DNA of 57,764 bases from contig JAUXGA010000016.1 of assembly GCA_030622545.1 (NCBI GenBank), positions 1 through 57,764 on the forward strand, in the 5' to 3' direction. The position numbers and the translations under genes are program-made. The notes under the pieces were generated by a model. That model made no database searches, was not told where the DNA came from, and saw only the letters and a program-made list of their open reading frames with translations. Each line of letters opens with the position of its first letter. The stretch's first letter is position 1. Below, piece after piece: positions 13,482 to 36,208 of the stretch. The stretch comes from a bacterium. GTDB taxonomy: Bacteria; Electryoneota; RPQS01; DYHQ01.

Positions 13482-15011
13482 TTGAGATTTGACCGACTGC
13501 TGGTAGGGGCGGCCATCATCCTCGTCCTCTACCTGTTTACAAACGCCATCTTCAACTTCTTCTCTGTCAGTCAGCAGCAGGAGCTGTTTCGCTTCTTTAT
13601 TTTGGGAGCGCCGGTCACGATTATCTTTTTTCTCTTCCCGCGTTTCGCTCTGGTGCTCTTGGCCATTTTTGTTTATTCTGTTGATTGGTTGTCGGCTTGG
13701 GTTGGAATTGTTCCAAGGGAATTCACCTGGTTCATAGATCTGATTCTCATCGTCTTCCTTCTGCGTTATTTCCTGCTTTTCCCTCGACTTCGCACACGAC
13801 CAGTCCCAATGACGATAAAATGGATTTGGGGTCTTCTTTTCTTCGTAGTACTTTCCGCATTGCTCAACCATGTTTCCGCGACAACCGCTCTGATCGGTTT
13901 GCGCGTATCGATGAAATATCTTCTACTGTTCGTCGTTCTCTACTCGATGGACTTCAGTGAAAAGTTCTATAGGCGATTGCTCTACTTGCAATTTGCTGTC
14001 GCTCTTGTGCAAATTCCTGTCGTTCTTGTTGAATTTACCATAATACCTGCAAAAGAAGAAGGATTATGGGATCTTATCACCGGTACCTTCGGACACAATG
14101 GAACTGGTGTCTTAGCAGTCTTTCTCTTGGGATGGATCGCTTTCCTGATTGCAACCATGCTCGTACAGCGCCGTCTGCGATGGGGAATTCTCTTGATCAT
14201 CATCCTGCTCGGTATTCCCCCTCTCTTAGGTGAATCCAAAGCGTTTTTCTTTTTTCTGATAGCGCTCGCATTTTTTATGCTGCGTTATGAATGGACAAAG
14301 CGACCGTTATTTGCATTGACCATTGGTTCTTTCTGTCTGTTATTTATCGTAGGCGTGGACTACATTCTGATCAAATCCGGTTACTGGGCAGAAGGACGTA
14401 ACCCTCTCACCTACATCACACGTGTAGATGAAATTATCGAAAAAGACCTCGCAGGACCTTTGAGGTACTTCAAGGATGGTGTCTGGGTCACCGATTGGTA
14501 CATTGGACGAGCCTATGCAACCAAACATGCGTTTCTTTTTGCGACATCCAGTCCACGAGCATTTTGCTTCGGTTTTGGCCCCGGCGCAGCTACCCAAAGC
14601 GTTTTTGCCGCCTATGAGTCTCCTTCAGTCGCGCATTTCAGAAGCTGGGGAGTTTCTTCGGGGCGGCAGTGTTTGCCTTGGTTGATGGTTGAATATGGTA
14701 TTATCGGAACGCTGCTCTTCCTCGTACCTTTATATCTCCTTTACAGGCGCGCTACACTACTGTCACGGAGCCCTCGTAAAGACTATAAGATACTCGCCGC
14801 AGCTTTTCAGGGAATAACCGTTGTATTCCTATTTCAAACTTATATCTCAAGCGTTTTACAATCGGATCAGCTCTCCTTCTTCTATTGGACGACAGCAGTT
14901 ATCATCACCCAACTTTCTTATACGGTGAAAGATAAAAAAGAATTGGAACAAGCCTCTATACCAACTGTGCAAACCTTACGGGCTCCGGGAACGCTGACAC
15001 CAATCCCTTGA
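13482..15011 (+). CDS. O-antigen ligase/polymerase-like membrane protein
   Basis: 509 residues with about 10-12 membrane helices. The topology fits Wzy/WaaL-type polymerases: short loops, then one large extracytoplasmic loop (about 300-395), then two or three helices. A glycan-polymerase role is inferred from this layout and from RVSMKYLLLFVVLYSMDFS and FGHNGTGVLAVFLLG, since sequence conservation in the family is low. The start appears to be TTG at 13482, preceded by CGGGAAACC; no ATG gives a full first helix. The next genes do not form a recognisable glycan locus. Confidence 0.65.
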   Translation: MRFDRLLVGAAIILVLYLFTNAIFNFFSVSQQQELFRFFILGAPVTIIFFLFPRFALVLLAIFVYSVDWLSAWVGIVPREFTWFIDLILIVFLLRYFLLFPRLRTRPVPMTIKWIWGLLFFVVLSALLNHVSATTALIGLRVSMKYLLLFVVLYSMDFSEKFYRRLLYLQFAVALVQIPVVLVEFTIIPAKEEGLWDLITGTFGHNGTGVLAVFLLGWIAFLIATMLVQRRLRWGILLIIILLGIPPLLGESKAFFFFLIALAFFMLRYEWTKRPLFALTIGSFCLLFIVGVDYILIKSGYWAEGRNPLTYITRVDEIIEKDLAGPLRYFKDGVWVTDWYIGRAYATKHAFLFATSSPRAFCFGFGPGAATQSVFAAYESPSVAHFRSWGVSSGRQCLPWLMVEYGIIGTLLFLVPLYLLYRRATLLSRSPRKDYKILAAAFQGITVVFLFQTYISSVLQSDQLSFFYWTTAVIITQLSYTVKDKKELEQASIPTVQTLRAPGTLTPIP

Positions 15012-15251
15012 GAAATTTCCACTTCACCTTCTCGCCGCCTATCGCGATACAGATTGCAGGAATCCAAACAACCGGAAGAACGGAGAAAACATCGAATGTT
15101 CACGCTCTTTCCAATGTTCCCGTAGCTCAAGCCGTGGGAGTCAGTCTCTTGGAGCGGTTCTATGCAATGGTTTCCTGGAACAGTGTGGTACCTCTGCGTT
15201 GGTGGCGATGATTTTCGCTGACATTTTTCTCCCGACGGGAATAAGGAACAT
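15012..15251 (+). other. Decayed or non-coding stretch after the polymerase-like gene
   Basis: Short open frames exist, including one starting at TTG 15008 that overlaps the previous stop, but none has a convincing binding site, signal or domain. A coding-like tail (CGTSALVAMIFADIFLP) appears in one frame just before 15250 and then stops. It may be the eroded 5' part of the gene whose 3' part is at 15252-15632. Confidence 0.35.
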
Positions 15252-15632
15252 TTGAACAACGAAACTCCCCTCGTTCTCCTTGATGACTGGGGATATCAAC
15301 TGTTAAACTACTACGGGATAGAAATCCGTCCTTATTGGAGACGGATACAATCTCCAAGGGATACAGTCGACGTTCCCGGCTATCTTCCCTACTTGCAAAA
15401 GAGACTCTCGCGAGCCCGCAAAGTCTATTATCTGCGTGAAGACGATTCGCAAAACTGCTTGGACCCCAACGACGTTGCCCTAAAATCGCTGCGAATCATT
15501 GGCGAAGATGAGATACACATCCCTTACAACCGGCGGTTTCAGCTTTTCGGATGGACCTTGATAAAAGACAATCCCAAAAACGCAAATCCCCTTCTGGACA
15601 ATCCGGATGCTGCACGATCCGACTTCCAGTGA
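15252..15632 (+). pseudogene. Hypothetical protein, possibly the C-terminal fragment of a membrane glycosyltransferase
   Basis: 126 codons starting at a TTG. The product LVLLDDWGYQLLNYYGIEIRP ... VYYLREDD ... IPYNRRFQLFGWTLIKDN is soluble and has real-protein composition. The phrase LDDWGYQ-YYG resembles the soluble C-terminal end of large membrane glycosyltransferases that scavenge a terminal residue, but the membrane part is missing. An in-frame stop lies 11 codons upstream. It could instead be a small genuine gene: AAGGA is 4-5 bases before the TTG. Confidence 0.35.
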
Positions 15633-15655: not shown

Positions 15656-16537
15656 ATGACATCTGATTCCATTCATACTTCCGACGAAAGCGCTTCGGAT
15701 ATGCCGAAATTCACATCCGGTTCTCATGTGACTGCGGAAGTTTGTCGCGGCTGCATCATCGATGATTTGGAAGGAGCCTTGAAACTTCTCGATGTATCGG
15801 GCGAAATCGCGCGGGAAGTGTTGTCCAATGTTCACAGCTTCATGGATGCGGAGTTTAATTTCTCGCGTGCTCCGTCGTATTATATCACCGCCGTCCACCG
15901 CGAATTGAAGCGCGCTACGGGACTGGACGTTCCCTTTGCCGAGTTGCGGCATGCCTGCAATGAAGTCGGCAAAATCCTCTCGGAAAGGCTGCGCAAACGT
16001 TTAAAGTCTATGCCCGCAAAGGAAGGATTTCGCTCAGCGGTAGAATGGGCGGTCGCGGCGAATCATCTCGACTTCCGCACCGTCGGAACCGGCTACGGTT
16101 TCGCGGCGGATGAAATCGAAGGTATGCTGAAAGGCAAACTTGAGCAGGGATTTCCCGTTGATGAATTCGAGAGCTTCTATGAGCTGTCTCAAAAAGCGAA
16201 GGATGTCCTCTACATCCCGGACAACGTCGGCGAGCTTGCCTTCGACAACATCGTTCTGGACTATCTGCGGGATTTCGGCTGCCGCACGACCGTTCCCTAT
16301 CGAGGCGGCGCGATTACATCCGACGCGACGCTGGAAGATTTCGAATTTCTAAATACCGCGGCGCATGCGCATAAAATCATACTTGCCGGGCCGGATACAC
16401 TGGGCATCTCTCTCGAAGAAGCGACACCCGAACTTACGACCGCCCTTCAAAGCGCCGACCTCATCATCACTAAAGGGACGCTTTGGAGCAGATCGCTTTC
16501 AACACGGCGTGTTGCTGGAGGAGATGAATCTTCATGA
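15656..16537 (+). pseudogene. DUF89/ARMT1-family metal-dependent phosphatase, C terminus lost
   Basis: 293 codons. DUF89 proteins are damage-control phosphatases acting on sugar or cofactor phosphates. CRGCIIDDLEGALKLLD at the N terminus, the metal-binding YIPDNVGELAFDNIV and the late ADLIITKG motif are all present. In the family the KG motif is followed by about 40 more conserved residues; here only an unrelated Arg/Ser-rich tail follows. The +1 frame after KG reads FQHGVLLEEMNLHEP, which looks more protein-like, so a frameshift near 16480 is possible. The reading frame runs into the next gene's start at 16534. The gene probably lost its end when the following low-GC segment arrived. Confidence 0.6.
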
Positions 16538-17904
16538 GCCAACCTACAGAACAATTTGAAGACGTGGCTTCCCAATTTCGCAAATTCACTTGCCATGACT
16601 TAGACGTGGGAAATCCTGTATTCTCCATGGTTTCTCGATGCGTCGGTATCGAGAATAGAAATAAGCTGACACGATTGTTGATTCTTATTCTGGTATCTAT
16701 CACAGGCCTCACCTATATCACACTCCGAGAAGGAAGATTTTTCTTGGGTAGCCTGACTACTCCTCTCAGTGGGTATGGTGAGGCGCAAGGCATGAGCTTC
16801 TTCGGCGATACGATGGTGTGGCCATTCATTTTTTGGGTTCCGATTGCATTCATTCTAACGAGAGTCGCCCTCAACCGATCTGCAACTGTGATCATCAGCA
16901 CTATTCGTTCGGCAGAAGAAAACTGGTTAATAGATGAATCTAAGTATGGTTACCGTAATTCAATCAGGAAGACTCTAGCCATCTTTGAGGGGCGCCGAGG
17001 ATGGAAATCAGCTGTAATCTCGATAAGTCCGTGGATAATTGCTGGTCTATTCATAGTCTACAATACTCTCACGTGCGCATTCCATAACGAACTCCGCGAG
17101 AACTATTATCCCTACACATCTGATTTGGTCAGAGTGTTACCCAGTGAGGCCACAGGGCCTACAAGGTTTGAGCCAAACCAGACGCTACCGGCATACATTC
17201 AGTTGGAAGACGAAGTATGTCTGCCCAAGTGGGATACGAACCGGTATGATGCTCCTTGGTCTACTTGGATGGTCCGTATATGGGCACTCATTTTCTACGG
17301 TTTACCTCCCTTCATTCTAGCGAAATTAATAACGATAGTTTGGGGAACCTCATCGTTTTTGTTTCATAAAGCAAGGTGGGAGGAAATATCATTATCTTCG
17401 GATTCCAAACGTATACTCACATTGTCTCCTTTGGCAGACGACAAGTACGGTGGACTTGGACATATGGTTTCAGCAGCCATGAGCTACTTGTACGCAGGAT
17501 CTATGTTCATCTTGATGATAACAATGGCTTTTCTCAAGGAGGGTCTACCCCCGTCATGGCATAACTACTTCATGCTTATTGCGTTTACACCAGTATCTGT
17601 TTCGGCATTTTTAATACCTTTGCTCATTACGCGCAAATCCATTCGAAGCTGCAAGTCTCGTTGCATATCTGCGCTAAATAAAGAGATCAGTACAATAACG
17701 AAATCAATCCTACATGACTCACAATACAGAATATTTAAAGGTGGTGTTGATCTACGACTTGCTTCCTATGAGTCAATGCGAACGCGTATTCTCACAATAC
17801 CTGATCTTCCGATTACCTTCTCGACATTACCACGAATAGGACTTGCTGTTGGCGTACCATTTGCGCTGACCTTACTGGATCATCTAATGCGCGCGGGACT
17901 GTGA
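16534..17904 (+). CDS. Polytopic membrane protein of unknown function
   Basis: 456 residues, not recognised. After a 40-residue cytoplasmic N terminus there are six or seven membrane helices (about 45-65, 92-115, 160-182, 245-272, 308-330, 338-362, and a C-terminal hydrophobic stretch 430-450). A soluble loop of about 55 residues lies between helices three and four. The end (LPITFSTLPRIGLAVGVPFALTLLDHL) resembles the terminal helix of other uncharacterised bacterial membrane proteins. Base composition is visibly more AT-rich than in the flanking housekeeping genes. It overlaps the broken DUF89 gene by four bases and precedes a second membrane protein by 24 bases. Confidence 0.55.
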   Translation: MSQPTEQFEDVASQFRKFTCHDLDVGNPVFSMVSRCVGIENRNKLTRLLILILVSITGLTYITLREGRFFLGSLTTPLSGYGEAQGMSFFGDTMVWPFIFWVPIAFILTRVALNRSATVIISTIRSAEENWLIDESKYGYRNSIRKTLAIFEGRRGWKSAVISISPWIIAGLFIVYNTLTCAFHNELRENYYPYTSDLVRVLPSEATGPTRFEPNQTLPAYIQLEDEVCLPKWDTNRYDAPWSTWMVRIWALIFYGLPPFILAKLITIVWGTSSFLFHKARWEEISLSSDSKRILTLSPLADDKYGGLGHMVSAAMSYLYAGSMFILMITMAFLKEGLPPSWHNYFMLIAFTPVSVSAFLIPLLITRKSIRSCKSRCISALNKEISTITKSILHDSQYRIFKGGVDLRLASYESMRTRILTIPDLPITFSTLPRIGLAVGVPFALTLLDHLMRAGL

Positions 17905-17928
17905 TAACATGCTTTGCAGGAAATCGAT

Positions 17929-18747
17929 ATGGATTTGAATGCTTCCAAAACCGATAGATCCTCAAGTCCGCAAATCGAATATGTTCTAATAGTCTTTGGT
18001 TGGTTGGCTTCTCGGATCGGTCTATCAATCATTCGAGACTATCATATCTGCGGTTTAGCTGTTTTACCCGCAATACTGATTCTATTATATAATCTGTTCG
18101 TTCTCATAAAAACTACATACCGGGAGCAACCAACAAATCGAAAGTTATGTGTCATTAGCGGTTTGCTCAGTGACGCAATTCCGTACTGGACTCTACGATA
18201 TGGTTCTGAATCAAGATACGAAATTATGTCGGCTTGGGATGGTAGATTATGGGTAGTTTCTTTTATCTTCCTTGTCGTAGTATGTGGTCTTTGGTGGATC
18301 ACAAGAAACACGCAAGTACCGCGCTTGTTTAATTCTATACGTTACGGAATCATTTCAACGATGTTGATTTCAGTTCCGATTCTCATTGTAGCGTTCTTTC
18401 GCATTACCTATTTAATGATCCGTCACCTGCCAAATGAAGAAAGATCTGTATTCCTCTTCGGGTCAGAAATTCACCATGCATACATCGGTGCCCTGGGTAT
18501 TATCATATGCAATGCAATAGCAAGCAGACGTGACCCTAATTTAGTATATTCCCTCTCATTGGTGCTTTCCATTTCTATGGGAGTGATTATCGATCAGCTA
18601 ACATACATTATGATACTGCATGTCACCGATGCCGCCTATTCGAGCACTTTGTCATGGCTTGGGCCAATAGTTGGTGTGCCCCTGATCATTCTGACTGTCT
18701 GTTGGTTCCATTTTCACACAGCACGACCATCTCGTGTGCATAATTAG
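17929..18747 (+). CDS. Second polytopic membrane protein of the low-GC insert
   Basis: About 272 residues with seven hydrophobic segments and short loops. SEIHHAYIGALGIIICNAIA followed by SLSLVLSISMGVIIDQLTYI recalls a widespread uncharacterised integral-membrane group with an HH-x(3)-G helix and a later GxxxD(E/Q) helix; this is a pattern impression, not a domain hit. ATG at 17929 is preferred over TTG at 17914 because AGGA lies about 8 bases upstream. Low GC is shared with the preceding gene, and the two probably form one transcript. Confidence 0.55.
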   Translation: MDLNASKTDRSSSPQIEYVLIVFGWLASRIGLSIIRDYHICGLAVLPAILILLYNLFVLIKTTYREQPTNRKLCVISGLLSDAIPYWTLRYGSESRYEIMSAWDGRLWVVSFIFLVVVCGLWWITRNTQVPRLFNSIRYGIISTMLISVPILIVAFFRITYLMIRHLPNEERSVFLFGSEIHHAYIGALGIIICNAIASRRDPNLVYSLSLVLSISMGVIIDQLTYIMILHVTDAAYSSTLSWLGPIVGVPLIILTVCWFHFHTARPSRVHN

Positions 18748-18930
18748 AGCGCATCCCATCTCATAGGAGAATCTACGGATATCTCCGCCGAGCCGGGTTG
18801 GGCGCTCTGGACATTTCCCTTTCGAGAGGACGCGGTCGCGCGCAACCCAGCCGGATTCTGGGATGCACAACACCTGCTACCTCTTGACCATGAATGTAGC
18901 AGATATGTTCTAATATCATTGAGGCTCTAA
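18748..18930 (+). pseudogene. 3' remnant of a coding gene upstream of pgsA
   Basis: After the insert the sequence becomes GC-rich again. A 61-codon open frame with no start codon ends at TAA 18928-18930, one base before the next ATG. Its product (DISAEPGWALWTFPF, then NPAGFWDAQHLLPLD, then YVLISLRL) looks like the C terminus of a real protein. I cannot name the family. Together with the truncated DUF89 gene it brackets the low-GC segment, as expected if that segment replaced the middle of an older gene pair. Confidence 0.45.
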
Positions 18931-18931
18931 A

Positions 18932-19504
18932 ATGAAAAAACGTGTGGGGCTACCCAACAAGATTACGCTATCGCGCCTGGCGTTAGGGCCGCTTTTTCTC
19001 ATCGTCTATCTGATCGATTGGCCCGGTGCGAAACTTGGCGGGCTCATCATCGTTGTTTTCAGCGAAGCGTCCGATCTTATTGATGGGTGGGTTGCGAGAG
19101 CGCGAGGGGAAACATCAGAAATCGGCAAATTGATCGATCCAATGGCCGACGCCACCGTGCATCTCTCTTGTTTTTTTGGCCTTCTTGCTTACGGTTACGC
19201 AGCAGCCTGGATGATCGCTGTGCTGGTTTACCGTGAAATAGTGGTTGCGTATGTACGAACGCTGGCGGCCTTGCAGGGTGTGGTCATTGGTCGGCGTACG
19301 AGCGGAAAATGGAAGAGCTTTTCACAAGCCACGGTCATTATCACCATTCTTTCGCTCGATTTGATTAATTTCCCTTGGCTTCAGCCCTACTTCGTGCAAG
19401 TGGCCCACTATCTTGTGATCGTCGTGGTTCTCTACTCTGTATTCACACTGATAGATTATATCTGGAGTAATCGTACGATACTTAAGGAGCTGCGCCAGCG
19501 ATAG
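18932..19504 (+). CDS. pgsA: CDP-alcohol phosphatidyltransferase (PgsA-like)
   Basis: 190 residues with four or five membrane helices. The enzyme probably transfers glycerol-3-phosphate to CDP-diacylglycerol, giving phosphatidylglycerol phosphate. The complete signature D-x2-DG-x2-AR-x8-G-x3-D-x3-D is present as SDLIDGWVARARGETSEIGKLIDPMADA. LPNKITLSRLALGP at the start is typical. The pgpA gene, for the next step, follows after 41 bases, which supports a phosphatidylglycerol role over other members of the superfamily. Confidence 0.88.
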   Translation: MKKRVGLPNKITLSRLALGPLFLIVYLIDWPGAKLGGLIIVVFSEASDLIDGWVARARGETSEIGKLIDPMADATVHLSCFFGLLAYGYAAAWMIAVLVYREIVVAYVRTLAALQGVVIGRRTSGKWKSFSQATVIITILSLDLINFPWLQPYFVQVAHYLVIVVVLYSVFTLIDYIWSNRTILKELRQR

Positions 19505-28321: not shown

Positions 28322-29905
28322 ATGCGCCGCTACGTCTTCACAGTCTTCTTTATTTTCCTCCTCACCTCTCCCCACACTTCCATAACGGCAAGCGAAAAAC
28401 CGGAACCGAATTTCACACTGACAATCGCGCCCAAAACAGAAGGTCGTCTCGACTGGGATTTCGACAATACCATTTTTGGCTCGTCGCGCGATGAAATCCA
28501 TCCCACTCTATGCGCAACCCCGGATGGCCGGTATCTTTACGCCTGCTGCTGTGTTCTGGACGGCGATGGCGCGTTCAATCATCTGCGCCTGCGCTGGTCC
28601 ACCGACGGAGGGCTAACGTGGGGAACGAATGTGGACCTTCAAACCGAAAACCCGTTGGGAGTGAGTCAGCTCGCAGCAGATGACGTTTACATCTACCTTG
28701 TCTATGAATATTATTTCGCGCCGGATGACATCGATATCTATCTCGCGCGACTCCCGGTAGGTTCGACAAATTCTTTCTTCACATTGCCCATCGCTAACAC
28801 CTCGGCCATCGAGAAATCTCCCGCAATCACGTGCGACAGCCGCGACAATCCGCAGGAGCCTTATCTATACATCTCTCATGCCGCATTTGTTCAATCCGAT
28901 TCCATGCGCTACTATTTCCATCTTTCCATCGACCGAGGCGCAAGTCTGCATCGCTCAAAATTAATTTCATCTTTCCCAGGACAACTCAATCGGTCAAGCA
29001 TTGCGACAGGAGAGTTACTCGAGAGTACCATAATCTATATCGCTTGTGAAGCCGAGAGAAGCGGCGAACGCGGCTCGATGGTTTACACCACAACCAGTCT
29101 TGATTTAGGCGCAACTTGGAACTATCCATCTCCTCTTTCGAGTGATCATCGCGCTTTCAGCTTGCCGGATATTTGCGCGATTGGTAACTATGCAGTTCTG
29201 ACCTGCGTTCACGAACCGGTTCCGCATGACCTCGATGTTCTCTACAGTTTCACGCAGGATTCGGGACGCACGTGGAGTACAGGCAGTCTCGTCAGTCCCG
29301 GAGAAAGCTACGACACGGAACCGCAAATCGTCATCGAAGAAAACGGCGCCTTCACTATCGGCTTTACGCACTTCCTCTCCGAGGATTCATCAATGGGAAC
29401 AGTTTGGGCGAGACGCGGAACTATCCTGCATCCGGACTCTCTTGAGCTTCCCGTCGCCGTTGCGAATGAAACCGTGACACCGTCCGGATACCGACTCGGA
29501 ATGTGCGCCGCGCCAAATATACCGGAGTTTCATGGAGCGGCTCTGGCGTGGACGTCGTATTTCATTCTTGGGGACACGGATGTAAAATTCGATGCGGCAT
29601 GGAGAGGGGATGCTGCTTATCATAAAACACTCGCACTCCCATCACAACTCCTGCTGGAACAAAACTGGCCAAATCCGTTCAACCAATCGACAACAATTCG
29701 CTTTCATCTGAATTCACCCGCTCAAACACAGCTAATCATTCACAACATCCTCGGGCAAGAAATGATGCGACAGAATCTCGGCATTCTATCTCCCGGAATC
29801 CATATACTGATTTTCGACGCGCAAGCTTTCCCATCGGGAAACTACTTCTATACCCTGAAATCAAGTCAGATAGAACAGACACGAAGAATGATGATTTTGA
29901 AATAG
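28322..29905 (+). CDS. Secreted sialidase-fold (BNR) protein with type IX sorting domain
   Basis: 527 residues. Signal peptide about 1-22. Asp-box (BNR) repeats STDGGLTW, SLDLGATW and TQDSGRTW mark a six-bladed sialidase-like propeller (about 40-430). The last 80 residues are a type A sorting domain: NWPNPFNQSTTIRF, LIIHNILGQEM and FPSGNYFYTLKS, ending MMILK. Catalytic sialidase arginines are not evident, so enzyme activity is uncertain. Begins eight bases after asd. Confidence 0.82.
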   Translation: MRRYVFTVFFIFLLTSPHTSITASEKPEPNFTLTIAPKTEGRLDWDFDNTIFGSSRDEIHPTLCATPDGRYLYACCCVLDGDGAFNHLRLRWSTDGGLTWGTNVDLQTENPLGVSQLAADDVYIYLVYEYYFAPDDIDIYLARLPVGSTNSFFTLPIANTSAIEKSPAITCDSRDNPQEPYLYISHAAFVQSDSMRYYFHLSIDRGASLHRSKLISSFPGQLNRSSIATGELLESTIIYIACEAERSGERGSMVYTTTSLDLGATWNYPSPLSSDHRAFSLPDICAIGNYAVLTCVHEPVPHDLDVLYSFTQDSGRTWSTGSLVSPGESYDTEPQIVIEENGAFTIGFTHFLSEDSSMGTVWARRGTILHPDSLELPVAVANETVTPSGYRLGMCAAPNIPEFHGAALAWTSYFILGDTDVKFDAAWRGDAAYHKTLALPSQLLLEQNWPNPFNQSTTIRFHLNSPAQTQLIIHNILGQEMMRQNLGILSPGIHILIFDAQAFPSGNYFYTLKSSQIEQTRRMMILK

Positions 29906-32201: not shown

Positions 32202-33794
32202 TTACTTCAATAGAATCATTTTTCGAGTAAGACTCCCTTCAGAAGATGAAAGCGTGTAGAAATAGAGACCGCTGCTCCATCCGGCAGCATTAAAAGTAGT
32301 GCTGTACGTTCCGTGGGAAAGCCGGTCGCTCAGCAAAACCCGGGCTTCCTTCCCCAATAAATCCGTCACCCGGAGCGTCACAGGCCCCGCTCTTGTAATC
32401 GTGAACTGAATCGTCGTCGCTTCATTGAAAGGATTCGGATAGTTTTGAGAAAGCTGGAATGTCCGCGGAATTATTTGCGGAGTTGTCGCCGCGCTTCGGC
32501 GGATTATGATAGGAGCATCCGCATAAAGCTGAATGGAATTTATCGGATCATCAACGCGAGCGTATGGCCACAGTTCCTCTCCATCCGGGAAATGAGCGAC
32601 TGTCCAGCGCAATGTGTCCGGATCGTCATCTTCGGAAATCCCCGCGCCCCCCGGAATGATATAGCCGTTATAATCGAGCGTATCAGTGTCATAATAAAGA
32701 TAAATAACGGCATCGTCTTCCGCGTCGAAAACATCCCACTGCAAAAGATAGCTCTCTTCTGCCGTATCAGGTTCCGCTCCGGGTCTAAGCCATGTGAATG
32801 TCGGTGGGAAGTTCGGCAAATCAACATGAAATGACATAGAAATCGTATTGTTGTCTTCGTAGGATTCCGCAATATCGTCCATCGGATCCAACTCGAACAG
32901 ATACTCGTGATCCCCTTCCGTCATCACCTTGGCCGGATAATAGGTCATATACTGCTGTTGCCCTTCTGCCCAGTTGATTTCCATATCTACTTCCGGAATA
33001 TCATCGTAACTCGCTGTCAGGTAAAACGGCGGCAGCAGGCCGTTGCCGAACGTCACCCATCGGAACTGAGCAATCACGGTGTCTCCCCACGCCGGTGTTG
33101 CGGGCAACTCCGTACTATCCGTTCCCAACAAAGTCAGACGAATCGCCTGCAAATCAAAGAGCCCATCGTCCCAAGCAATATCCAAATCATCAATAAACGA
33201 ACCGATATCAACACTGGCATCGGCATCGCTCCGAAATAGAAAATAGATATAGACCGTAGGTTCTCCTAATAGAGAAACGCTGTCTCCATTCGCATCTCGC
33301 AAATCAGCGAAATCCATGTAACGCGCTTCCCAGTTGCACGTGCCGGAATGGCTTCCGCCGCGTCCGAGTTCCGTTGCGTCTCCTTGCACTGATGCCGCCC
33401 AATAAACCGAATCCCCTCCCGCCTCGGTGCGATCAAGGAGGTAAAAACCCGCCAGAGCTGCTTCGGCGTCGCTCAAGTCAAACGGCCCCCAGCGCATATA
33501 TGTGAAGAAATTGCGAGGATAGTTGTCGTACTCCGGATCAGTAGTATTGGGGTAACCATAGCACCAGGCTGATTGACCGGTTTCTTCGTTTCCGTGGTAG
33601 ATATAGGCCTGAATTCCCCAATGTGCCCAACCGGGAGTGACGAACCATGTCCGGCCCGCCGTAGTCCATGGCCATTGGTAAAACGGACGTTCGAAGTTCT
33701 CACCCATCACCGTATGCCATGTCGCCTGTGCCCGCGGCATAAAAACCACTGTCCCAAGCAAAATCAGCATCCACAGAAATGCGCTTTTCCGCAT
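32202..33794 (-). CDS. Secreted protein with CARDB-like region and type IX sorting domain
   Basis: About 530 residues from ATG 33794, where GGAAG precedes the start and a normal signal peptide begins (RKSAFLWMLILLGTVVFMP). An earlier in-frame start would add 27 residues and spoil the signal. Residues about 25-200 are a Trp/Tyr-rich beta domain of unknown type. A CARDB-like segment follows (FDLQAIRLTL ... DDIAESYEDNNTISMSF). The C terminus is a sorting domain: LSQNYPNPFNEATTIQF, LRVTDLLGKEA, GLYFYTLSS and KMILLK. Probably anchored at the cell surface or released. Confidence 0.8.
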   Translation of the reverse strand: MRKSAFLWMLILLGTVVFMPRAQATWHTVMGENFERPFYQWPWTTAGRTWFVTPGWAHWGIQAYIYHGNEETGQSAWCYGYPNTTDPEYDNYPRNFFTYMRWGPFDLSDAEAALAGFYLLDRTEAGGDSVYWAASVQGDATELGRGGSHSGTCNWEARYMDFADLRDANGDSVSLLGEPTVYIYFLFRSDADASVDIGSFIDDLDIAWDDGLFDLQAIRLTLLGTDSTELPATPAWGDTVIAQFRWVTFGNGLLPPFYLTASYDDIPEVDMEINWAEGQQQYMTYYPAKVMTEGDHEYLFELDPMDDIAESYEDNNTISMSFHVDLPNFPPTFTWLRPGAEPDTAEESYLLQWDVFDAEDDAVIYLYYDTDTLDYNGYIIPGGAGISEDDDPDTLRWTVAHFPDGEELWPYARVDDPINSIQLYADAPIIIRRSAATTPQIIPRTFQLSQNYPNPFNEATTIQFTITRAGPVTLRVTDLLGKEARVLLSDRLSHGTYSTTFNAAGWSSGLYFYTLSSSEGSLTRKMILLK

Positions 33795-34028
33795 GATTCT
33801 TCCATTAAGCTTAGAATAAGATAACAGAACCTTTGGTAAAACACAAACGGCGCTGCAACGCCTGTCCGTTTTCAACGGATTCGGTCTGCAACGCCGTCAA
33901 TGGTTATTCGTAAACTTTCAAAAACACGGATTGAAACACCCAAGCGGTAAACAACATTCGTCTCAGCATCACAATCTCCGCGCAGGTTTCATGTTGTTTT
34001 CAGCAATCTCGTACGTAAGAAGGAACTC

Positions 34029-36047
34029 CTACTTGAGCAAAATGAGCTTTTTCGTCGCCGTAAACGATGGAGCGGCTTGCGAGCCCGCCGTCAACCGCGA
34101 GAAATAAACACCGCTGGAAAGAGCGGATGCATCCCATTGAACCGTATGTGCTCCGGGATTCATCGTTTCCGAGACCAGCACGGCAACTTCGCGCCCGAGA
34201 ATATCATAAACGCTCAGCCTAACCGGTGTGCGCTCCGCCAGAGCAAATGGAATCGTCACGACCGGGTTGAAGGGATTCGGGAAACCTTCTCCTAAGTTGA
34301 AAGATACCGGCGGTAGACCCGCTTCGGATTCGACAGCCGAAATCGTTCCCAGCCAACCCAGCATATTCGCCATCAGAAGATTCCGATTGTAATCATCGGC
34401 GATACCTTCAAAACCAAACGCGAGATAAATCGCGCGATACGTTCCCGTTTCAATGCGCAGCGCGGCATTGCGGTTATAAGTGCCTTCGCTGTAGGTCAGG
34501 AACGTCGTAGCCATAGCGTCTAAAGGATCAATATCCGCCTGACTTGTCTGATTATTCGCACCCGTTCCGCCATAGATATCGAAAGACATTCCGCCTGAAA
34601 TCGGATCATCTGTTACACCGTAAACGGTCCGACCCTGATAATAAGGGGTGATAAAATCAGCATGCAGGTAATCCGTAAAGAACGACGTTCCCGGATTCGG
34701 ATTCCCGATATCGAATCCGATTTTCTGGCCGGATAGAATCAGAGAACCTCCGCCGTTGAGATACTCTGCGAGCATCGTCTGCTCTGTCTCGCTGAGCGTC
34801 TCCGGTGAATTCCCGGTCATCCAGATGACGCAAGCGACTTGTCCAAGGTCGCTCGCGGTCGGTGTATTGTAGGTGATATCCCAGACACCGTTTATCACGG
34901 CTTCCGATAAGGGCTCCAAAGCCGCCGTGAAATACGATTCGTAATCACTCCCCTCATCATCGTCAACTACTAAAACATCCAATCCTGTATGCTGAATGAA
35001 ATCGACATCGGAGGTGATTTCGGAAACAGTCTGAGACGTCGCTGTAATCGTGATATCGCCTGTGCCGGGCATCCCATTAGCATTCATCCGCACAATCAAG
35101 GTGGCGCTGGCATAAGGAGCAAGCGATACCGACACTTCATCCGGATCAGCCGTTCCTCCCTGTACTTCAATTGTCTTCGTCCAACCATCAGGAAAGTCAC
35201 CCGATACCGCCGCTGTATAGGTATCGGCTTCAATTCCCATATTGGTCAGAATCGCAATAAAGTTCCCACTCGATTCGATAGGGATCATTCGCGTGTATGC
35301 CGAAGATGCCGTTAATTCCATGGAATAGGTGAGGTCAACGTCGGCGTAAGCGGCCTGATGAATCTCTTTAGTGCTCAGATTCTGAACGAAGGCGATAACC
35401 GTCATATTTTCGAGATCCCATCTGGGTTCCGTCGAGAATTCAGCCGTATACTCATGAGTTTCCTCGGGAGCAAGACTGATAGGTTCGCCTGCGGTGCTCG
35501 GAGCCATATCACAGAAAGGATACTTATACTCTGTCCCTCCGACTTGATAATCATTATGAATCAGAGCCAAGAAAAGATGTTGAATGTCGTTGGACATATC
35601 CTCTTCAGCCGTCACGATTGCTGTCGCCTGAATCGTCGGGCCCATCGTGAGCGTCGTAACATCAATGGTGCACGGCGACGGAATTCCCCGACGCTGACCA
35701 ATAGCGTTCGTTATCTGGCTCGAGGACGACGCGCTGGGTGTTAAAATACCGTCAATCCTCAAGGCCGGAACACTGTTGATACCATAGAAAAGCACGCGAA
35801 GAGAGTCCTCAATTCGGTTGTACAGATAGAAGGGATCATTCCTCCCGGGCCACCAGACATGATAGCGCACACAGACAGCAATATCACGACCCATATTCTG
35901 CAAAACCTGATCCTGTGCCTGGTCGGCTGCAGGACAGTACGGACAAGATGTATTCGTAAAACTTTCAAAGAGCACGGTGCGCGGCGCAGCTTGAGTGGCG
36001 ATGACAGCGCTCAATAAAAACATGGCGAGCAGTACGCGTTTCATCAT
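34029..36047 (-). CDS. Secreted thioredoxin-fold (Omp28-like) protein with type IX sorting domain
   Basis: About 672 residues from ATG 36047 (GAGAGGAAG upstream; signal peptide MKRVLLAMFLLSAVIATQA). The N-terminal domain has a CxxC site, FTNTSCPYCPAADQ, as in Omp28-like outer-membrane proteins. A second domain around GLDVLVVDDDEGSDYESYF looks like a GATase-like or Rossmann fold (WMTGNSPETLSETEQTMLAEYLNGGGSLILSG). The end is a sorting domain (FPNPFNPVVTIPF, LSVYDILGREVAVL, GVYFSRL, KLILLK). A redox role is possible but not proven. Confidence 0.82.
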   Translation of the reverse strand: MMKRVLLAMFLLSAVIATQAAPRTVLFESFTNTSCPYCPAADQAQDQVLQNMGRDIAVCVRYHVWWPGRNDPFYLYNRIEDSLRVLFYGINSVPALRIDGILTPSASSSSQITNAIGQRRGIPSPCTIDVTTLTMGPTIQATAIVTAEEDMSNDIQHLFLALIHNDYQVGGTEYKYPFCDMAPSTAGEPISLAPEETHEYTAEFSTEPRWDLENMTVIAFVQNLSTKEIHQAAYADVDLTYSMELTASSAYTRMIPIESSGNFIAILTNMGIEADTYTAAVSGDFPDGWTKTIEVQGGTADPDEVSVSLAPYASATLIVRMNANGMPGTGDITITATSQTVSEITSDVDFIQHTGLDVLVVDDDEGSDYESYFTAALEPLSEAVINGVWDITYNTPTASDLGQVACVIWMTGNSPETLSETEQTMLAEYLNGGGSLILSGQKIGFDIGNPNPGTSFFTDYLHADFITPYYQGRTVYGVTDDPISGGMSFDIYGGTGANNQTSQADIDPLDAMATTFLTYSEGTYNRNAALRIETGTYRAIYLAFGFEGIADDYNRNLLMANMLGWLGTISAVESEAGLPPVSFNLGEGFPNPFNPVVTIPFALAERTPVRLSVYDILGREVAVLVSETMNPGAHTVQWDASALSSGVYFSRLTAGSQAAPSFTATKKLILLK

Positions 36048-36208
36048 TCTTCCTCTCGAAGTTATTTGTTTTTCGATTCCTTTTCCCACTTCAGCATCAC
36101 AAAGAACTGAGTTTTCAATTCCTCTGGATTAAAAAGGTCTTATTTTCCTATTGTAAAATATAAGCAATTTTCGTAAAATAGCAACTCTTTTAGCCTGTAT
36201 AGACAACT

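Follow-up and report, generated by a model that had tools for sequence, protein, structure and literature searches.

The locus analysed here raises the question of how two AT-rich genes for membrane proteins came to lie between a DUF89 gene that ends early and an intact pgsA gene, and of what sequence they displaced. The window is one whole contig of 57,764 bases from a genome of 20 contigs and 2.66 Mb. The phylum is small: the comparison set comprised 38 other phylum genomes, of which only one (G001, here called the sister genome, with its DUF89-pgsA locus at L079) belongs to the same family. In an initial annotation the locus was read as a deletion-replacement by horizontally acquired DNA, in which the middle of an older gene pair had been lost, leaving a DUF89 gene without its C terminus on the left and a start-less 61-codon gene remnant on the right. 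The DUF89 gene, ORF1, ORF2 and pgsA all lie on the + strand, and the features of the locus are as follows.

15656-16537, + strand: DUF89 / ARMT1-like phosphatase gene, 3'-truncated (Pfam PF01937, E 1.7e-36, profile positions 1-280 of 311)
16480-18911, + strand: probable inserted block replacing about 117 bp (39 codons) of DUF89, with no counterpart in the sister locus
16534-17904, + strand: ORF1, polytopic membrane protein of 456 aa (family HMM, phmmer, alignment)
17914-18747, + strand: ORF2, polytopic membrane protein of up to 277 aa, no detectable relative
18748-18869, + strand: dispersed hairpin repeat read as non-coding, core 18768-18857 (copies, consensus hairpin)
18912-18935, + strand: retained last DUF89 codons (N I I E A L K stop), by match to the sister
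18932-19504, + strand: pgsA, intact, downstream neighbour (TIGR00560, 113.3 bits against a cut-off of 109.1; 68% identical to the sister)

Homology of the window DUF89 protein ends after the motif ITKG at about position 16479 and is followed by 19 foreign residues. Up to this point it is 67% identical to the protein of the sister, the alignment stopping at ...CACTAAAGG. The segment that comes next, KGQ[AG]N[FYL]...KC, is kept in each of the 13 DUF89 homologues that were compared. The window has KG-TLWSRSL... here, with TLWSRSLSTRRVAGGDESS in place of the complete segment, so the C terminus was indeed lost right after the KG motif, as initially proposed. A second DUF89 gene of the same genome (L026) is intact and keeps the motif. 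DUF89 proteins are metal-dependent phosphatases (PMC8669784). Like the ARMT1-like damage-control phosphatases of PF01937 the window protein retains the DNVGE-type core and the ITKG motif, but unlike them it lacks the conserved C-terminal segment. Because a segment present in every homologue compared has been lost, and because an intact second copy exists, the truncated protein is probably inactive.

The sister genome indicates what the older arrangement looked like. Its DUF89 gene is complete and directly followed by pgsA, the stop codon of the former overlapping the start of the latter (GTGA). The DNA alignment between the two loci breaks at ITKG and picks up again just upstream of pgsA, where the window sequence AATATCATTGAGGCTCTAAAATGA matches the sister sequence AATATCATGAAGGTTCTGAAGTGA at 19 of 24 bases in the same position (18912-18935). 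These bases represent the last seven to eight DUF89 codons, and they carry the pgsA Shine-Dalgarno sequence and an ATGA stop/start overlap; the right breakpoint thus lies a short way before the ribosome-binding site of pgsA, which has been retained. It follows that about 2,432 bases (16480-18911) stand in for about 117 bases (some 39 codons) within a single gene. Judged from these alignments, the cassette is located within one DUF89 gene, both outer pieces of which are still in place. The replacement part of the initial reading is therefore upheld in that acquired DNA probably replaced older sequence, the sister being intact and the two ORFs having no counterpart elsewhere in the phylum, but what was replaced was not the middle of a gene pair, since the sequences on either side are parts of one DUF89 gene.

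The supposed remnant on the right has a different explanation. When the block was searched against its own genome with blastn, 13 further copies of 18758-18863 were found, and a profile search (covering about 418 kb of sequence, sampled mostly around known copies) identified 25 strong copies, all of them intergenic. The arms of the repeat, GCCGAGCCGGGTT...AACCCGGCCGG, pair into a conserved hairpin whose stem is bulged and whose middle varies. Weak copies occur in three genomes of the same order (G006, G007 and G009) and none in the sister; no Rfam family matched the repeat in the window. By its dispersal and its intergenic position in every strong copy, the sequence at 18748-18869 is a non-coding repeat, and together with the 3' stub of DUF89 it makes up what had been taken for a 61-codon tail. 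The locus is accordingly to be read as one interrupted gene followed by a non-coding repeat, instead of a gene pair with a missing middle and a pseudogene tail; a non-coding tail is an outcome that the initial annotation had itself named as counting against its reading. Among the other places where the repeat was found are L081, L083, L087, L089 and L095.

In its layout the repeat resembles the REPINs, or repetitive extragenic palindromes (PMC3116915), as two inverted, conserved arms enclose a loop that varies, and the copies are many and intergenic. It is unlike REPINs in that neither of the two Y1_Tnp transposase genes of the genome is flanked by the repeat arms. One Y1 transposase gene, of the REP-associated type (L169:3693-4546), is preceded by frames repeating the motif RRAGSPDPA, hinting at a different repeat family tied to that gene.

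As regards the origin of the cassette, its composition was ranked against 293 genes sampled from the same genome. ORF1 (GC 44.6%) fell at percentile 2.4 for GC and 0.3 for codon usage, and ORF2 (GC 41.5%) at percentiles 1.4 and 1.7, respectively, in agreement with the initial description of two closely spaced, AT-rich polytopic frames. A native neighbour at 13482-15011, which is 58% identical to its sister counterpart, nevertheless lies at the 6th GC percentile, so low GC alone proves little and is weak evidence for an insertion. Relatives of ORF1 and ORF2 were absent from the 38 other phylum genomes and none was matched in phages, plasmids or viral contigs. The sole other phylum hit of the family profile described below, in G005, was weak, lacked the motifs and scored nothing with an earlier family model, and it was set aside. 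The absence of both ORFs from the rest of the phylum, together with their atypical codon usage, makes it likely that the cassette was acquired from outside the lineage.

We therefore favour, with good though not full confidence, the insertion of a two-gene membrane cassette into the 3' end of DUF89 by non-homologous recombination, a judgement that concerns the structure of the insertion and not any specific function of ORF1 or ORF2. Against this account, no integrase, transposase or target-site duplication is evident at the junctions, and there is one same-family genome for comparison, its DUF89 67% identical, so that the event may be of any age and may have taken more than one step. A 13-bp direct repeat (at 17979 and 18903) that touches the right breakpoint was considered and judged likely to be a chance match.

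Other histories fit the locus less well. That the middle of a two-gene stretch was replaced (the 3' part of DUF89 and the 5' part of another gene), leaving a coding tail of 61 codons, would agree with the truncation of DUF89 and with the open frame that does precede pgsA. In the sister, however, no gene separates DUF89 from pgsA, the tail belongs to a dispersed repeat whose strong copies all lie between genes, and the older sequence that really stood before pgsA is the DUF89 end, read in a different frame, all of which makes this history extremely improbable. An assembly chimera in a metagenome-derived genome is also very unlikely: the 20 contigs, the atypical codon usage of the insert and the lack of relatives in the phylum might suggest one, but two independent joins within one gene would be needed, the operon orientation and the pgsA ribosome-binding site are kept, and the block contains a repeat native to the genome, an arrangement hard to produce by misassembly. 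The least probable history supposes an old, vertically inherited cassette, already carried by the family ancestor, with DUF89 restored in the sister by recombination. It draws on the fact that there is a single sister genome and that each state has been seen once, but it requires a gene that overlaps pgsA by 4 bp to have been restored precisely, and the other phylum genomes are without the cassette.

Turning to the inserted genes themselves, ORF1 has about seven hydrophobic segments. It begins with an ATG that shares bases with the newly formed DUF89 stop codon (ATGA), and a ribosome-binding site, GGAGGAG, precedes this ATG at 16517-16523. Single-protein scans of Pfam, NCBIfam, PADLOC, PHROGs and PDB sequences gave insignificant matches only, and no family among the PADLOC defence models was matched. 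It was a weak hit in a different phylum that pointed to a family of polytopic proteins of the membrane, marked by the pattern PLHPDxxGG ... H..M...K ... MPxWPFD. Against an HMM of this family built without ORF1, ORF1 scored 33.3 bits, compared to 12.5 bits for the best of 1000 hydropathy-preserving shuffles; hhalign gave an E value of 3.9e-6, a reciprocal hit was obtained from L029, and the best single match in phmmer was a Nostoc protein (6.1e-12). A scan of public genomes identified 51 loci of the family, in Wallbacteria, Cyanobacteria (Nostoc), Planctomycetota, Chloroflexota, Pseudomonadota, an archaeon (Methanoperedens) and others. Neither Pfam nor NCBIfam offers a model that covers it; the Pfam model 8xMP matched two of 12 members weakly (best E 0.011) and was discarded. 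The locus thus points to a polytopic membrane family that is widespread but lacks a curated model.

ORF1 aligns with the family over most of its length, with matching hydrophobic segments and GG, P and L positions. It differs in reading PLADDKYGGL and IPDLPITF at the motif positions, so that the canonical motifs are absent (the GG and some prolines are kept, the HPD His and the WPF Trp are lost), and in having a longer N-terminal half. On this evidence ORF1 is a very divergent relative, and not a canonical member, of the PLHPDxxGG / MPxWPFD family. In the family tree it sits on a very long branch, and therefore no donor can be named. Some distant relatives (L056, L057, L061, L062 and L063) carry a zinc-ribbon-like CxxC...CxxC N-terminal segment (CRYCLSEIPAGAVKCCHC) before the membrane part.

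ORF2 likewise has about seven hydrophobic segments, and its likelier start is the ATG at 17929, behind AGGAA. It had no match in Pfam, NCBIfam, PADLOC, PHROGs, PDB, plasmids, phages or viral contigs, and nothing convincing was found among the 386 genomes searched. It may resemble a widespread HHxxxG...DE membrane family. It is not related to ORF1. Single-sequence structure predictions were too poor for fold comparison (pLDDT 40 for ORF1 and 56 for ORF2). Both are most likely accessory inner-membrane proteins of the transport, envelope or defence type.

The initial annotation had further suggested that the pair could be a self-contained, undescribed two-component membrane system. Such a unit might have been mobilised as a cassette, a proposal about function that is compatible with the insertion account. 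Both genes lie on the same strand with a gap of 24 bp to the likely ORF2 start, they are similarly atypical in composition, and both are absent from the phylum. On the other hand, not one of the 51 ORF1-family loci, which come from many phyla, has an ORF2-like neighbour within flanks of up to 8 kb, ORF2 is without a relative anywhere searched, and the two genes might just as well have been inserted together by chance. There is therefore no support for a conserved two-component system; we regard a functional unit as doubtful, and the two proteins may not need to act together. More speculative, and decidedly improbable, is the idea that ORF1, from a widespread uncurated family, and ORF2 form a diverged accessory unit that inserts beside pgsA, coupled to a sacrificed DUF89, with a role that may lie, for example, in defence or envelope stress.

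For the insertion into DUF89 itself, entry of acquired genes by non-homologous insertion would be the simplest account. The event is genuine and, for the most part, ordinary: an insertion of accessory genes. The host site is a co-directional gene row, which in the sister order runs polytopic membrane protein, PMT-type glycosyltransferase, DUF89 and pgsA, preceded there by dnaX, an ebfC-like gene and recR. The product of pgsA is a CDP-diacylglycerol-glycerol-3-phosphate phosphatidyltransferase by its TIGR00560 match above the cut-off, and the locus shows plainly how a lipid-synthesis gene row can take in accessory genes with the pgsA ribosome-binding site spared, which would fit selection for continued pgsA expression. 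As the ORF1 start lies on the DUF89 stop behind GGAGGAG and the ORF2 ATG lies behind AGGAA, both genes could be expressed from the host transcript, probably through translational coupling to DUF89. Located between ORF2 and pgsA, the hairpin repeat, which is lineage-specific, may serve to dampen or punctuate read-through into the latter gene.

The gene preceding DUF89 is broken too: 15243-15569 holds a C-terminal remnant (about 109 aa) of the PMT-type glycosyltransferase, the first 390 or so codons of which are missing from the window, while the gene is complete in the sister (L079:9193-10725). In the sister, a gene for an 835-aa DNA methyltransferase-like protein (L079:12256-14763; N6_N4_Mtase, with PADLOC type II MTase matches) has been inserted between pgsA and pgpA and is absent from the window. 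Since the sister thus has its own insertion right after pgsA, the stretch around this gene appears to tolerate accessory genes. Elsewhere in the window, three proteins (28322-29905, 32202-33875 and 34029-36089) carry C-terminal Por_Secre_tail sorting domains, the first scoring just below the Pfam cut-off, which suggests a type IX secretion-like system in the lineage.
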